Source of the DNA: Caulobacter mirabilis | GTDB taxonomy: Bacteria; Pseudomonadota; Alphaproteobacteria; Caulobacterales; Caulobacteraceae | DNA: 64,000 nt | NCBI RefSeq assembly: GCF_002749615.1 | Contig: NZ_CP024201.1 | Span: 2,170,001-2,234,000, forward strand | Direction: 5' to 3' | In this document: positions 54,992-64,000 of the stretch, piece by piece | Layout: the number at the start of each line of letters is the position of its first letter | How positions within the stretch are numbered: position 1 is the stretch's first letter | The notes under the pieces: generated by a model | The model's database searches: none | Told to the model about the DNA's origin: nothing | Seen by the model: only the letters and a program-made list of their open reading frames with translations | Translations under genes and position numbers: made by a program

Positions 54992-56242
54992 TCAGATCAC
55001 CGGCGAGTTCGGCGGCAGCCCGATTAAGGCGCGGCCGTGCAGCTCCAGCGCGCCGTCCAGGTCATAGACCACGTGGCTCGACATCACGTTGATGTCGCGC
55101 AGCGCCCGCTGGATCGGATTGTCCAGGAAATGCGCGCCTGAACCGCTGGCCTCGGCCAGGATGCGGATGGCGTTGCGGCACAGGTCCATGGCGTAGGCGA
55201 TCTTCAGCCGCAGGGCGATGCGCGGCTCGACCTCCGAGGCCCGGTTCCGGCGGCCCAGTTCGACGTTGGCGCGGGCGACCTCTCGGATCAGCATCTCCGC
55301 GGTCTGGGCCATGACGTCGGCCCGGGCCAGGCGCATCTGGGCGGCGGGCTTGTCGGCCTGTTTCTGATCCGTGCCGTGCATGACGCGCTCCTGCAGTCGC
55401 TCCCGGAACAGCTTCACCGCCCCGTGCGCCGCTCCGACCGCCGGGATCGCCGCCGTCACGGCTAGGAACGGCAGCATGGGCATGCGGTAGATCGGGTTGT
55501 CATAGAGCTGGGCGCCGTGGGCTCGGCCCTCGCGCATGTGGCCCATGTTCATGACCCGATGCGCCGGCACGAACAGCTCCTTCACGGCGATATCGTTGCT
55601 GCCGGTTCCGGCCATGCCGTCGACGTGCCAGGTGTCGAGCACCGTCGCCTCGGCCGTCGGGAAGGCGAAGAACAGGATCGTCGGCGGGGTCTGGCCGGCG
55701 ACCATGCCGGTGGCCAGGATCCAGTCGGAGTTCATCACCCCGGTGCCCCATTTCCAGCGGCCGCTCAGCCGGTAGCCGCCCTCGACCGGGGTCGCCTGGC
55801 CGGGCGGCATCGTGACGCCGGGGGCGATGATGTAGGGGAAGGCCCCGCCGAAGGTCTCGTCCTGGAAGGCCTCCGGGAACTGGGCGGCCATCCAGTTGTG
55901 CTCGACGCAGAAGGTCGTCACCCAGGCCGTCGAGGCGCAGGCCTCGCCGAGCGGCAGCATGGCGTCGATGAAGCTGTCGACGTCGAACTCCAGGCCGCCG
56001 TATTTGCGCGGCACGAAGTGATAGAAGGCGCCCGTCTTGCGCACGGCGTCCCACACCGCTTGGACGGGCCGCCGGGCGATCTCCGCCTCGCGGGCATGGG
56101 CGGCGAGCAGCGGCTTCAACGCCGTGGTCCGGGCGACCAGGTCTTGCGGCGTCAGGGCCTTCAGCTCGTCGGACGTGAGCCAGTCGTCGCCGGCGGGGAT
56201 ATGCGGTCGAGCCAGGGCGACGCCTGAGCTGTCATCGGCCAT
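54992..56242 (-). CDS. Group D flavin-dependent monooxygenase (acyl-CoA dehydrogenase fold)
   Basis: 416 aa. The acyl-CoA-dehydrogenase fold is visible: LPLGEACASTAWVTTFCVEH and RLSGRWKWGTGVMNSDWILA. The C-terminal domain with ILAEASGSGAHFLDNPIQRALRDI is typical of HpaB/HsaA/DszC-like oxygenases rather than true dehydrogenases. Such enzymes use reduced flavin from a separate reductase to hydroxylate aromatics or sulfur and nitrogen heterocycles. It lies 60 bases downstream of the TonB receptor gene on the same strand and may be co-transcribed. The reductase is not in the window. Confidence 0.85.
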   Translation of the reverse strand: MADDSSGVALARPHIPAGDDWLTSDELKALTPQDLVARTTALKPLLAAHAREAEIARRPVQAVWDAVRKTGAFYHFVPRKYGGLEFDVDSFIDAMLPLGEACASTAWVTTFCVEHNWMAAQFPEAFQDETFGGAFPYIIAPGVTMPPGQATPVEGGYRLSGRWKWGTGVMNSDWILATGMVAGQTPPTILFFAFPTAEATVLDTWHVDGMAGTGSNDIAVKELFVPAHRVMNMGHMREGRAHGAQLYDNPIYRMPMLPFLAVTAAIPAVGAAHGAVKLFRERLQERVMHGTDQKQADKPAAQMRLARADVMAQTAEMLIREVARANVELGRRNRASEVEPRIALRLKIAYAMDLCRNAIRILAEASGSGAHFLDNPIQRALRDINVMSSHVVYDLDGALELHGRALIGLPPNSPVI

Positions 56243-58645: not shown

Positions 58646-59833
58646 ATGACGCCTCGGACGCGCCTGCGGTTTCCGCACCTGCTGTCGCCGGCCGCCGTCG
58701 GGCCGGTGAGTCTGCCCAATCGCCTGGTGATGTCGCCGATGACCCGTTTCCGGGTCGGGGAGGACGGCGTGCCGGCGCCGCTGAACGCCCGCTACTACGC
58801 CCAGCGGGCCGGGGCGGGGCTGCTGATCGGCGAGGGCGCCTATGTCGAGCCGCGCGGGCGGCTGACGCCGCGCACGGCCGGTTTTTGCTCAGAGACCCAG
58901 ATCGCCGCCTGGGGCGGGGTGACGGACGCCGTTCGAGAGGCCGGCGGGCGGATGTTCCTTCAGCTCTGTCACGGCGGGCGGGTCTCCCATCCCAGGCTGC
59001 AGCCGGGCGGGGGCGATCCGGTCGCGCCCTCGGCCATCGCCTTCGCCGGGCAGGTGCGCGTGGCCGAGAGCGAGCACGCCGGCGTCCGCAAGGTTCCGGC
59101 GCCGACGCCGCGCGGCCTCGAAACCGGCGAGATTCCGATGATCGTCGAGGCCTTCGCCGAGGCCGCCCGGCGGGCGCGGGAAACGGGCTTCGAGGGCGTG
59201 GAGTTGCATGCCTCCAGCGGCCTGCTTCACCAACAGTTCCTCACGCCCGCCGCCAATCGCCGGACCGATGGCTACGGCGGCGGGGCCACAGCCCGATGCC
59301 GGTTCGTCATCGAGACCCTGGAGGCCATGATCGCCACGGCGGGCGGCGGCAGGGTCGGGGTCAAGATCGGCCCGACCTTCGCCTACAACGGGATCGAGAT
59401 GGCTCTGGCGGAGGTCGTCGACACCTACGATGTCCTGCTCCGGATGCTGGATCGGCTGGACCTCGCCTATGTCCACCTGCAGCGGCCGACCTGGAGCCTG
59501 CGCCTGGGACCAGAGGACTTCGACGTGCTGGCCTTCGTTCGCGAACGCCGCCGCGGGACGCTGATCGCCGCCGGCGAGTTCGACCGGACGAGCGCCGAGG
59601 CGGCCCTCGCGGCGGGCCGCTGCGATCTGATCGCCTTCGGTCGGCGCTTCATCGCCAATCCGGACCTGCCCGAACGAATCCGGCGCGACGCGCCCGAGAA
59701 CGGCTGGGACGAAGCGACGCTCTACAGCCCCTTGGCGGAGGGATTCACCGACTACCCGACCCTGCCGGATGAACCGGCTTCTGCGCCTGGACGTCCGGCG
59801 GCGCCCCCCATTCGGCCGTCAGGCCGCCGATGA
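58646..59833 (+). CDS. Old Yellow Enzyme family NADH:flavin oxidoreductase
   Basis: 395 aa with GGGGAA upstream of the ATG. The FMN-dependent TIM barrel has LLSPAAVGPVSLPNRLVMSP, then MFLQLCHGGRVSHPRLQPGG, GFEGVELHASSGLLHQQFLT and RRTDGYGGG, ending CDLIAFGRRFIANPDLPERI. It is the classical OYE type (xenobiotic or enone reductase, like OPR). Catalysis reduces alpha,beta-unsaturated carbonyls. Its 3' end overlaps the convergent MarR gene by 89 bases. Expected to be controlled by the palindrome in its promoter. Confidence 0.92.
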   Translation: MTPRTRLRFPHLLSPAAVGPVSLPNRLVMSPMTRFRVGEDGVPAPLNARYYAQRAGAGLLIGEGAYVEPRGRLTPRTAGFCSETQIAAWGGVTDAVREAGGRMFLQLCHGGRVSHPRLQPGGGDPVAPSAIAFAGQVRVAESEHAGVRKVPAPTPRGLETGEIPMIVEAFAEAARRARETGFEGVELHASSGLLHQQFLTPAANRRTDGYGGGATARCRFVIETLEAMIATAGGGRVGVKIGPTFAYNGIEMALAEVVDTYDVLLRMLDRLDLAYVHLQRPTWSLRLGPEDFDVLAFVRERRRGTLIAAGEFDRTSAEAALAAGRCDLIAFGRRFIANPDLPERIRRDAPENGWDEATLYSPLAEGFTDYPTLPDEPASAPGRPAAPPIRPSGRR

Positions 59834-60417: not shown

Positions 60418-62268
60418 GTGGCGGGTTCGCTTTTCGAGACAGTTCTGGGCGGAACGGCCCGTTTTCTCAGCCGCTTTCAGCCGTGGCACAAATACCCGAC
60501 GGTGATCGCCGTGCCGACGCTGGCCGGGCTGCGCGTCAACATGCGGCACGAGAACCTCTACGACACCGAGACGGCGCCCCAACCCGGCGCGCCGCAGCCG
60601 TCGCCCGCGCAGCTGGACGTCCGGGAGGCGCGCACCGCCGACGGCAGCTACAACGACCTGGCGCATCCCTGGATGGGCATGGTCGGGGCGCGGTTCGGCC
60701 GCAACATGCCCATCGAGCGCACCTTCGGCGAGGAGGAGCCGGCCCTGATGACCCCGAACCCGCGGGTCGTCAGCAATCGCCTGCTGGCCCGCAAGGACTT
60801 CATCCCGGTGCCGCACCTGAACACCCTGGCCGCGGCCTGGCTGCAGTTCATGGTCCACGACTGGCTGAGCCACGGCGAGAACGACCCGAACGACAAATAC
60901 TATGTCGACATTCCCGAGGGCGACAGCTGGCCGGGCGGGAAGATGGAGGTGCTCAAAACCCTGCGGGACGGCCACCGGCCCGGCGATGCGGGGCGGCCGC
61001 AGGCCTACACCAACGTCGAGACCCACTGGTGGGACGCGTCCCAGATCTACGGCTCGACCCTCGAACGGCAGAAGAAGGTCCGGACCAGGCCGGGCGATAA
61101 GGACGTGCTGCCGGACGGCAAGCTGTGGCTGCAGCCGAACGGCCATCTGCCCATCGCCGCCGACGCCAAGATCGAAGGCCTGGAACTGGCCGGCGTCAAC
61201 GGCAACTGGTGGATCGGCCTGTCGGTGATGCACACCCTGTTCGCCCGCGAGCACAATGCGGTCGTCGACCGGCTGAGGATCGACTATCCGACCGAGAGCG
61301 GCGAATGGCTGTTCCAGAAGGCGCGTCTGGTGGTCTCGGCCCTGCTGGCCAAGATCCACACCGTCGAATGGACGCCGGCCCTGATGAACAGCCCGGAAGG
61401 CCGGGTGGCGATGCGCGCCAACTGGTGGGGGCTGGCCGGCGAGACCTTCTATCGCGCCTTCGGACGGGGCGGGGAGAGCGAGATTCTGTTCGGGGTCGCC
61501 GGCTCGCCGGTGAACCATCACGCGGCTCCCTATGCGATGACCGAGGAATTCGCCGCCTGCTACCGGATGCATCCGTTGATGCCGGACGAATACTCGTTCC
61601 GCAGCCGGCGAAACGACAAGGAGCTGCTGAAGCGGGACCTGATCGGCGTCGCCCGCGGGAACGCCAGCGACGTCTACAACCACGTCAGCTTCTCCGACGT
61701 CGTCTATTCCCTGGCCACCAGCCATCCCGGCGCGCTGTGCCTGCACAACTACCCGAACACCCTGCGCCACCTGCCGCCCAAGCGGGAGAACGACGTCCTG
61801 ACCGACCTGGCGGCGACGGACATCCTGCGTGACCGCGAGCGGGGCGTGCCGCGCTACTGCGAGTTCCGCCGCCTGATGAGCATGCGGGCGCCGAAGTCCT
61901 TCGAGGAGCTGACCGACAACAAGGACTGGCAGAAGGAGCTTCGGGAGATCTACGGCGACATCGAGAAGGTCGACCTGCTGGTGGGCACCCTGGCCGAGAG
62001 CCAGTGCAGCCGCAACGGCACGCCGCCGGGGTTCGGCTTCTCCGACACCGCCTTCCGGATCTTCATCCTGATGGCCACCCGACGGCTGAAGAGCGACCGG
62101 TTCTACGGCGAGGACTTCAACGCCGACGTCTACACCCCGACCGGCTTCGCCTGGGTGCGCGACAACGGCATGCGCAGCGTGATGCAGCGCCATATGCCGG
62201 AGTTGGCGGTCCACTTCGCGGACTGCCGGAGCATGTTCTTTCCCTGGGCCAAGGGGACGGCGGGATGA
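60418..62268 (+). CDS. Fatty-acid alpha-dioxygenase-like heme peroxidase
   Basis: 616 aa. The GTG at 60418 lies 9 bases after GGGGAGG; a GTG at 60409 abuts the ribosome binding site and is less likely. It belongs to the COX/peroxidase superfamily and reads closest to plant alpha-dioxygenases: HPWMGMVGARFGRNMP, distal His147 in FMVHDWLSHGENDP, HWWDASQIYGS and AREHNAVVDRL. The segment YRMHPLMPDEYSFRS holds Tyr382 three residues before proximal His385, exactly like Tyr385/His388 of cyclooxygenase. Such enzymes oxidise fatty acids to 2-hydroperoxy acids. It overlaps the next gene by 4 bp and has no signal peptide. Confidence 0.88.
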   Translation: MAGSLFETVLGGTARFLSRFQPWHKYPTVIAVPTLAGLRVNMRHENLYDTETAPQPGAPQPSPAQLDVREARTADGSYNDLAHPWMGMVGARFGRNMPIERTFGEEEPALMTPNPRVVSNRLLARKDFIPVPHLNTLAAAWLQFMVHDWLSHGENDPNDKYYVDIPEGDSWPGGKMEVLKTLRDGHRPGDAGRPQAYTNVETHWWDASQIYGSTLERQKKVRTRPGDKDVLPDGKLWLQPNGHLPIAADAKIEGLELAGVNGNWWIGLSVMHTLFAREHNAVVDRLRIDYPTESGEWLFQKARLVVSALLAKIHTVEWTPALMNSPEGRVAMRANWWGLAGETFYRAFGRGGESEILFGVAGSPVNHHAAPYAMTEEFAACYRMHPLMPDEYSFRSRRNDKELLKRDLIGVARGNASDVYNHVSFSDVVYSLATSHPGALCLHNYPNTLRHLPPKRENDVLTDLAATDILRDRERGVPRYCEFRRLMSMRAPKSFEELTDNKDWQKELREIYGDIEKVDLLVGTLAESQCSRNGTPPGFGFSDTAFRIFILMATRRLKSDRFYGEDFNADVYTPTGFAWVRDNGMRSVMQRHMPELAVHFADCRSMFFPWAKGTAG

Positions 62269-63152
62269 GCGGGCGCCTCCGGCTGCCCGGCCTCGTCGAC
62301 GTCATCCGGCTCGACGATCCCGCGGCGATCCACGCCCTGTCGGAGGACGCCCGGCTGGATCGGCGGTTCGTCAAGGCCGGACCGCTGGTCAACCGCATGC
62401 TGGCCGGACGTATCCGCAGGGTGCTGCAGGTCGACGGCCATCCGCTGCCGGCGGTGGCGGCGAGGGGCGCGCCCGACCGCGCGCGGCTGCAGGCCCTGCT
62501 CGAGCAGAGACTGCAGAACGCCCAGCTCGGCACGCCGCAGCAACGGGCGACCCTGGCGGGCTACGTCCGCGGCGAGCTGGGCGAGTCCGTACTGGGGCCG
62601 ACGGCCCAGGCGGCGATCGGCGAGCTGTTCTCGCCAGGCTATGAGGCGCGGAGCGACCGCTGGCGCGCCGCCAGGACGCTGGACGCCGCGCCGCGCTCGT
62701 TCAATCCCTTGCAGCTGCTGTGGTGGGCTCTCACCGGCGCCGTGGGCCGGGCGCGCCGGACGCTGGCCAGGCCGGTCGACGGCGATCCGGCCGCGGTGCA
62801 CGCCACCGGGGTCGCCGTCCACAACCTGGTGCGGGGCCTGAAGATCATGCGGGGGCTGTGGCGCCAGCCGATGACGCGCGACAGCCTGACCGAGGCGGCG
62901 GTCATCTGCCGCTGCGCCGTCGCGCCGGCGACCGTCCTGCGCCAATGGAAGGCGCCCGCCAGCACGGTCTGGGGCGAGGTCGAGGAGGGGGTTCTGACCC
63001 TCTTCCAGCTTGACGCCGCCCGCCTGCGCGCGCCCTCGCGGCAGGTCGTGTTCATGACCGACAGCTGGAGCCGCTGCCCGGCGCACCACTGGACCGCCTC
63101 GCTGCTGGGCGCGGTCTGGCGCGAAGCCAAGGGCGGGGAGGCGCGGCCATGA
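62265..63152 (+). CDS. Unrecognised protein, partner of the alpha-dioxygenase
   Basis: 295 aa. Starts at ATG 62265 (MSGRLRLPGLVDVIRLDDPA), overlapping the dioxygenase stop by 4 bp (ATGA). The N-terminal third reads VIRLDDPAAIHALSEDARLD and PLVNRMLAGRIRRVLQVDG. The C-terminal third has AVICRCAVAPATVLRQW and VVFMTDSWSRCPAHHWTASL. No signal peptide or clear transmembrane helices; an Arg-rich hydrophobic patch lies around 145-165. I do not recognise a family. The late Cys/His segment sits where a P450 heme-binding loop would be, but the standard FGxGxHxC motif is absent. Confidence 0.75.
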   Translation: MSGRLRLPGLVDVIRLDDPAAIHALSEDARLDRRFVKAGPLVNRMLAGRIRRVLQVDGHPLPAVAARGAPDRARLQALLEQRLQNAQLGTPQQRATLAGYVRGELGESVLGPTAQAAIGELFSPGYEARSDRWRAARTLDAAPRSFNPLQLLWWALTGAVGRARRTLARPVDGDPAAVHATGVAVHNLVRGLKIMRGLWRQPMTRDSLTEAAVICRCAVAPATVLRQWKAPASTVWGEVEEGVLTLFQLDAARLRAPSRQVVFMTDSWSRCPAHHWTASLLGAVWREAKGGEARP

Positions 63153-64000
63153 CCGAGACCCTGCGCACGCCCGCCGACGCCGCGGCCGCCGGCGATCCGA
63201 TCTTCCAGCCGCTGAAGTTCCGAAACCTGACGGTCAAGAACCGGATCTTCCGCTCGAACCTGTCCGGGATCTTCGACAACCAGGACGGCTCGCTCACCCA
63301 GACGCGGATCAACTGGGAGAGCAAGTTCGCGGCCGGCGGGGTCGGGGCGATCATCTCGTCCTATGTTCCGGTGCTGATGGAGGGGCGGATCATCGCCGGC
63401 TACGCCACGGTCCACCGGGACGAGTTCATCCCGCTCTGGGCCAAGCTGGGCGAGGCGATCCACAGCTTCGACGCCAAATACATCATGCAGCTGAGCCATT
63501 CCGGCCGGCAGATGGACATTCCCGGCGTCCACAACCAGATGCGGCCGAGCCTGACCTCGACCAGCAACAAGGAGACCCTGCACGGCTTCCTCTGCCGGGC
63601 GATGACCAAGGGCGACATCGACCACACCGTGAACGCGTTCGCCGAGGGGGCCTGGCGGGCGCGCGAGGCGGGGCTGGACGGGGTCGAGCTGCACGCCGCC
63701 AACGGCTATCTGTTCACCCAGTTCCTGAGCTCGGGCATCAACGACCGCAAGGACGAGTACGGCGGCTGCCTGCAGAACCGGGCCCGTTTCCTGCTCGACG
63801 TGATCAGCGCCATCCGGGCCAAGGTCGGGCGCGACTTCCACCTGCAGGTCAAGCTCAGCGCGATCGACCGCAACAACGTCATCCCCTGGGAGGGAAAGGG
63901 CAACACCCTGGCCGACACCGTCCAGGTGGCCAAATGGGTCGAGGCGGCGGGCGCCGACTGTATCCACGTCTCGTCCGGTTCGCTGTTCCCGCACCCGCTG
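63149..64000 (+). CDS. Second Old Yellow Enzyme/2,4-dienoyl-CoA-reductase-like protein (partial)
   Basis: The gene is cut at the window edge after about 284 residues. It begins at ATG 63149, overlapping the previous stop by 4 bp. Visible parts are PIFQPLKFRNLTVKNRIFRS, then YIMQLSHSGRQMDIPGVHNQ, GLDGVELHAANGYLFTQFLS and NDRKDEYGGCLQNRARFLLD. The last is the FMN-barrel core of the larger OYE group (2,4-dienoyl-CoA reductase, xenobiotic enone reductases). It differs clearly from the OYE at 58646. It likely reduces an unsaturated carbonyl made downstream of the alpha-dioxygenase. Confidence 0.9.
   Translation, partial: MTETLRTPADAAAAGDPIFQPLKFRNLTVKNRIFRSNLSGIFDNQDGSLTQTRINWESKFAAGGVGAIISSYVPVLMEGRIIAGYATVHRDEFIPLWAKLGEAIHSFDAKYIMQLSHSGRQMDIPGVHNQMRPSLTSTSNKETLHGFLCRAMTKGDIDHTVNAFAEGAWRAREAGLDGVELHAANGYLFTQFLSSGINDRKDEYGGCLQNRARFLLDVISAIRAKVGRDFHLQVKLSAIDRNNVIPWEGKGNTLADTVQVAKWVEAAGADCIHVSSGSLFPHPL

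Follow-up and report, generated by a model that had tools for sequence, protein, structure and literature searches.

In the fungal DOX-CYP fusions (linoleate diol synthases/Ppo, DOX-AOS and DOX-EAS), a P450 partner takes the hydroperoxide without an electron chain, and in plants P450s of the CYP74 family take the hydroperoxide step (PMC13049297). In corals, catalase-related hydroperoxide enzymes (AOS/HPL) are fused to lipoxygenase, and the fused heme domain transforms the hydroperoxide of the dioxygenase (PMC5617202). Among bacteria, the oleate diol synthase operon of Pseudomonas aeruginosa (PA2077/PA2078) encodes RoxA-like di-heme enzymes; the extract of its description names these two enzymes only, and no alpha-dioxygenase, P450-fold protein or Old Yellow Enzyme (OYE) (PMC4496055). 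Plant and cyanobacterial alpha-dioxygenases are presented as single enzymes in the extract available (PMC8720084); an alpha-dioxygenase puts a peroxide on C2, and the 2-hydroperoxy acid is then reduced or loses CO2 (PMC9305512). Here we analyse a stretch of 64,000 nucleotides of Caulobacter mirabilis (the window; NZ_CP024201.1, positions 2170001-2234000, within a 4.58-Mb single-contig genome), at the end of which begins a conserved five-gene operon that, in our judgement, rather probably encodes a route to oxidised fatty acids with two heme steps.

The operon and its closest relatives

An earlier note on this DNA had proposed an oxylipin operon of three genes coupled through 4-base overlaps. 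A check of the open reading frames confirmed the three frames and both overlaps, at the DOX/MID and MID/OYE junctions. The window end cuts the operon inside OYE; in the continued sequence ROX starts 1 base after OYE, and MEM 10 bases after ROX.

60418..62268, + strand: DOX, heme enzyme of the peroxidase-cyclooxygenase superfamily resembling alpha-dioxygenases (stop 62268; the start may instead be 60409)
62265..63152, + strand: MID, 295 amino acids, for which a trimmed P450 fold is predicted and a role as heme-thiolate hydroperoxide enzyme is proposed
63149..64000, and past the window up to 64528 in the same numbering (L005:150-1529), + strand: OYE, 459-amino-acid NADH:flavin oxidoreductase with four Fe-S-type cysteines
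L005:1531-3093, wholly past the window: ROX, 520-amino-acid RoxA-like di-heme cytochrome c
L005:3104-3526, wholly past the window: MEM, 140-amino-acid four-helix membrane protein without a Pfam family

All five genes are under purifying selection (dN/dS 0.12-0.41 against three Caulobacter loci, L006-L008). The locus shares with the fungal fusions a dioxygenase of the peroxidase-cyclooxygenase superfamily beside a partner of predicted P450 fold, but has two separate genes, an alpha (C2)-type dioxygenase and a partner of about 295 residues in which the HxCxG loop is missing; OYE, ROX and MEM come in addition. Like the P. aeruginosa operon, it would be a bacterial oxylipin operon with a RoxA-like di-heme enzyme. 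DOX agrees with the plant and cyanobacterial alpha-dioxygenases at each of the seven positions compared (catalytic, heme and carboxylate residues), and differs from them as a member of an operon. The coral fusions differ in having a lipoxygenase rather than an alpha-dioxygenase, and a catalase fold rather than the P450 fold predicted for MID. What would be new here is that the oxylipin plan of dioxygenase plus heme partner has a bacterial variant, in which the partner comes from a P450-fold family missed by sequence models.

The alpha-dioxygenase-like enzyme

DOX matched PF03098 with 359.7 bits (E 3.3e-107), and its nearest PDB relatives were the plant alpha-dioxygenases 4kvj and 4hhr (E ~1e-107), followed by lactoperoxidase as the next family at E 9.8e-32. 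Its active site was compared with that of the rice enzyme at seven of the residues listed for the latter (H157, H311, W315, T316, Y379, H382 and R559; PMC8720084), other listed substrate-channel residues being left out. All seven are identical: His157 corresponds to the distal His147, His311 to His314, Trp315 to Trp318, Thr316 to Thr319, Tyr379 to Tyr382, His382 to the proximal His385, and Arg559 to one of Arg555-Arg556. They are also invariant across 14 operon DOX sequences, and Tyr382-Arg-Met-His385 is the Tyr-x-x-His arrangement noted earlier for the first gene, whose assignment to the COX superfamily is correct. Judged by these residues, the first operon gene has an alpha-dioxygenase active site, and the product predicted for DOX is a fatty acid with a hydroperoxide at C2. 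DOX is 47% identical to a Calothrix protein, which we do not equate with CalDOX, the characterised enzyme of Calothrix parietina (PMC8720084). A 913-amino-acid DOX of another genome (G582, L083:6232-8973) has about 310 C-terminal residues that match no Pfam family and no operon protein.

The middle protein

Structure modelling of MID predicted a P450 fold, the same fold as that of plant CYP74 and fungal hydroperoxide-transforming enzymes. It is because of this model, and not of sequence or profile-profile signals, that we describe the fold of MID as a P450 fold. The predicted fold and the neighbourhood search reported below together lend good support to the hydroperoxide-processing place in which the earlier note had put the then unrecognised middle gene.

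Among 165 MID sequences (24 from a contig scan whose sole search pattern contains His186, and 141 free of that pattern), Arg33, His186, Trp268 and Pro272 are present in all, Cys271 and Arg226 in 164, and Asn187 in 158. Cys271 directly precedes the last (L-like) helix, predicted at 273-290, as in P450s. A feature sought in self-sufficient hydroperoxide P450s (CYP74, LDS, PGIS type) is an amide or another polar residue at the distal position of helix I in place of the acid-alcohol pair. Hydroperoxide-using self-sufficient P450s (LDS, EAS, PGIS and plant AOS) carry a distal asparagine in helix I, which in 5,8-LDS (Asn887) stands four residues after a glycine (PMC13049297). The long helix of MID predicted at 175-200 has Gly182, four residues on His186, and then Asn187; the glycine spacing is as in 5,8-LDS (the two not being superposed), a match that is suggestive only.

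A MID profile matched 563 protein clusters at E<=0.001, and no precomputed Pfam domain was found among the matched clusters listed (54, and the best 120 of the 563). MID would, to our knowledge, be trimmed further than any other P450-fold heme enzyme. On an uncultured Xanthobacteraceae contig (L026:1161-2483), MID and MEM share one uninterrupted 440-codon frame, possibly a natural fusion.

A catalase-related partner in the same place

A match to DOX was found in 25 plasmid records, of which 19 were covered to at least 96%. Sixteen of the 19 carry a catalase-related domain in frame directly before DOX, and in Rhizobium phaseoli R611 the two are annotated as a single protein of 942 amino acids.

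L090:3918-6746 (NZ_CP013550.1, R. phaseoli plasmid): an alpha-dioxygenase domain preceded, in one protein, by a catalase-related domain (PF00199 match over residues 75-145)

The catalase-related domain scored 28.1 bits on PF00199 (cut-off 25) and matched 3e4w, which we take to be the mycobacterial catalase-related peroxidase, at E 8.7e-12. Since it is identical over its length in 10 of the 16 records, these represent few independent lineages: the R. phaseoli type, four other Rhizobium records, Phyllobacterium and Nonomuraea. MID is present in one of the 19, the only plasmid record to hold it, and the other two are from Calothrix and Streptomyces, the check for a partner covering Calothrix only. 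Catalase-like relatives also occur away from DOX in four of seven MID genomes searched, and are thus not exclusive to a hydroperoxide role. On NZ_CP013550.1, a RoxA-like di-heme gene follows the fusion.

The rhizobial fusion has the same plan as the catalase-related-lipoxygenase fusions of corals. By analogy, the pairing of bacterial alpha-dioxygenases with either a predicted P450 fold or a catalase fold suggests that MID handles the hydroperoxide, and is the best indirect evidence that it does so.

Distribution and evolution of the operon

A sequence search with 62265-63152 and its neighbourhood, carried out as a scan of genome contigs, gave 25 MID loci, in hosts including Caulobacter, Phenylobacterium, Rhodobacterales, Roseibium, Halomonas and Chromatiaceae. 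DOX lies directly upstream of MID in 20 of them, nine of which are from Halomonas or Billgrantia; among these 20, OYE comes next in 19, ROX is on the same strand in 18, and 19 contain a MEM relative (E down to ~1e-5). In two of the 20 the DOX frame is broken (L009, which ends inside OYE) or starts at the contig end (L026). The three genes first noticed in C. mirabilis therefore occur together, and collinearly, far beyond the genus.

The trees of DOX and MID from 13 operons have the same topology (Robinson-Foulds distance 0 of 20, against a mean of 19.7 and a minimum of 8 in 2000 label shuffles); the distance is 2 for DOX-OYE and for OYE-MID, and 6 for each pair with ROX. In genome samples of the family, class and phylum, which overlap in some genomes, MID is rare and linked to DOX. 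It was found in 4 of 249 genomes of the family, with DOX in the same four (of 248), and in 2 of 289 of the class, with DOX above 1000 bits in the same two and a distant 107-bit DOX match in a third. In the phylum sample it occurred in 3 of 349, plus one 23.8-bit match, DOX exceeding 1000 bits in the same three. Such rare, linked presence, together with the shared tree topology, suggests that the operon has been transferred as a block.

On a 517-kb plasmid of Qingshengfaniella, DOX-MID-MEM faces a divergent unit of an FAD-binding oxidase, a MEM relative and ROX. Oxidases of the FAD_binding_4/ALO type lie beside DOX here (L088:5440-8857, divergent) and in G624 (L082:4672-7844, same strand, no MID), and are a possible alternative to OYE.

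Proposed pathway and alternative explanations

The computations show the content and order of the operon, the co-occurrence of its genes, their shared tree topology, the active-site residues of DOX, and the predicted P450 fold of MID with its conserved cysteine and histidine; from these we infer heme binding, substrate, product, independence of an electron donor and the order of the later steps. DOX would oxygenate a fatty acid to its 2-hydroperoxide, which MID would rearrange or cleave at a cysteine-bound heme, with Cys271 as the proposed ligand. The peroxide itself would be the oxidant, so that no electron-transfer partner would be needed. OYE may then reduce an activated C=C bond in the product, ROX, which has a predicted membrane anchor, may oxidise the lipid at the periplasmic side, and MEM may tether some of these proteins to the membrane.

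A fuller proposal, which taken jointly seems to us evenly poised between right and wrong, is that MID, a protein of about 295 residues, founds an unrecognised branch of the P450 fold and acts on hydroperoxides as a heme-thiolate enzyme that needs no electron donor and has His-Asn as its distal pair. The operon would then be a bacterial oxylipin cascade whose separate genes correspond to the fungal DOX-P450 fusions and to the pair of COX and prostacyclin synthase. In rhizobia a catalase-related domain would have come independently to occupy the place of MID beside the alpha-dioxygenase, so that bacteria repeat among themselves the P450/catalase duality of plants and corals.

Several results weigh against a two-step heme pathway. 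The pattern FxxGxxxCxG was found in none of the 165 MID sequences and ExxR, within the stretch 205-221, in one; MID lacking both the signature loop FxxGx(H/R)xCxG and ExxR, we call it P450-fold and do not file it as a P450. No match to the p450 Pfam family at E<=1 was found among 55 MID members, and the best match of a P450 profile to MID sequences had E 0.36. Profile-profile comparison with 29 P450s from relatives was weak (score 28.4, P 0.0086, probability 4.7%; controls: reversed P450 alignment 18.2, OYE 18.0, DOX 16.0, ROX 12.5). That alignment places MID 224-255 on the strands after helix K and Arg226 on the arginine that serves in P450cam as a heme-propionate ligand. The distal asparagine of 5,8-LDS is reported to be dispensable, and other AOS have threonine or a nonpolar residue instead (PMC13049297). 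As for the gene set, neither OYE nor ROX was found in L026, no OYE stands next to DOX-MID on the Qingshengfaniella plasmid, and the Calothrix plasmid record has neither MID nor the catalase-related domain beside DOX. Weaker DOX matches without MID were found in three genomes of the phylum sample (G624, G582 and G773). As a c-type cytochrome, ROX might pass electrons. MID occurs without DOX in five of the 25 loci, and its role therefore need not depend on DOX:

L011:7995-8882, L018:7995-8906, L019:7995-8870, L024:1047-1928 and L027:6755-7657: the five loci with MID only, from Acidobacteria-type, Duganella and Bacteroidetes records

At L011, RoxA-like genes lie beside MID on the other strand.

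EryCII is a P450-like partner that stabilises the glycosyltransferase EryCIII, and it appears among the Foldseek rows for MID (2yjn_B, E 5.0e-5). MID could likewise be a heme-free partner that binds or stabilises DOX or another operon enzyme and performs no chemistry of its own, as the absence of the signature loop and of ExxR would allow; the single MID-MEM frame of L026 would fit tethering. This we regard as unlikely, given that Cys271, Arg226 and His186, which a scaffold could lose, are almost or wholly invariant, that MID is found at loci without DOX, and that the replaceable neighbour of DOX in rhizobia is a catalase-related domain.

ROX bears on a different substrate. It matched NF040606 (di-heme-cytochrome C peroxidase; 166.6 bits, cut-off 150), PF21419 (RoxA-like; 53.1 bits, cut-off 26.7) and, in the PDB, RoxA (4b2n, E 1.1e-7). 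The last two would fit an operon that degrades isoprenoid or methyl-branched acids, ROX cleaving isoprenoid C=C bonds in the periplasm, DOX and MID performing alpha-oxidation where beta-oxidation is blocked, and OYE reducing enones; alpha-oxidation serves methyl-branched acids elsewhere. ROX scored, however, only 44-61 bits on the RoxA, RoxB and RoxC models, whose cut-offs are 900-1000, and a RoxA rubber oxygenase was rejected on this ground (NF050033, 44.2 bits against a cut-off of 1000). The two CxxCH motifs and the PYLHNGSV stretch of ROX, by which signature alone it is likened to PA2077/PA2078, have also been described for those fatty-acid enzymes (PMC4496055), and no acid-activating or beta-oxidation gene is found among the five. 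A stretch similar to PYLHNGSV is present in RoxA, so the substrate of ROX cannot be read from the signature. We hold degradation of isoprenoid or methyl-branched acids to be quite unlikely. In Rhizobium leguminosarum, genes are arranged OYE-ROX-MEM-ROX with DOX and MID not nearby, which indicates that parts of the operon form modules.

Very unlikely is a detoxification unit in which MID and OYE clear lipid hydroperoxides and reactive enals of oxidative stress and no signal is made, since, although other phyla have MID where DOX is absent (L018, L019, L024 and L027) and the catalase-related domain belongs to a group that includes peroxidases, the operon would itself make hydroperoxide through DOX, and its fixed order with a second oxygenase-type gene fits a pathway better.

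The oxylipin pathway thus keeps the support of the DOX active site, the co-occurrence of the genes and the predicted fold of MID, whereas the likeness to the jasmonate/OPR3 route that had been drawn for it finds no support. Allene oxide and cyclopentenone formation need a peroxide beside a diene; an alpha-dioxygenase places it on C2, not beside a diene, so neither compound is expected. The third gene is indeed an OYE, as had been recognised (PF00724, 203 bits). In 14 aligned sequences His182, Asn185 and Tyr187, which we take to be active-site positions of Old Yellow Enzymes, are invariant, as are Cys408, Cys411, Cys414 and Cys425 in the C-terminal part. Its nearest models are the Fe-S flavoenzymes mycofactocin OYE_2 (188 bits) and BaiCD, both scores far below cut-off. 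An enzyme of the OPR3 type (short OPR/NemA class) was rejected, as judged by class models, by these four cysteines and by 188 bits on OYE_2 against 123 on NemA.

Neighbouring genes

The second OYE, MarR regulator and TonB receptor reported beside the operon are present, but are not conserved neighbours: the 25 related loci showed none of them as a gene of its own (flanks of up to 8 kb, some contigs being short). The second OYE, at 58646, is N-ethylmaleimide-reductase-like. Beside the TonB receptor, 54992-56242 (- strand) encodes an HsaA/HpaH-like flavin-dependent monooxygenase (NF045629, 243 bits, below the cut-off of 450). Just past the operon, L005:3539-8492 encodes a protein of 1196 amino acids, in which a subtilase domain and, by eye, an HExxH motif were seen, plus a metallo-beta-lactamase-fold protein; a similar pair follows the operon in L006, and the long gene also in L007 and L008. 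A frame of 3247 amino acids (L005:8505-18248, - strand) in which, as judged by eye, near-identical units of about 80 residues recur many times resembles a large secreted adhesin.

Conclusions

Surveys relying on P450 sequence signatures would miss MID. Should the proposed pathway hold, bacteria would have in this operon their own counterpart to the lipid-signal pathways in which fungi and animals join a dioxygenase to a P450. Few oxylipin routes are known from bacteria, and the operon, which makes the pairing of a dioxygenase with a heme partner testable in bacteria, would be a genetically tractable model for how hydroperoxides are steered after dioxygenation.

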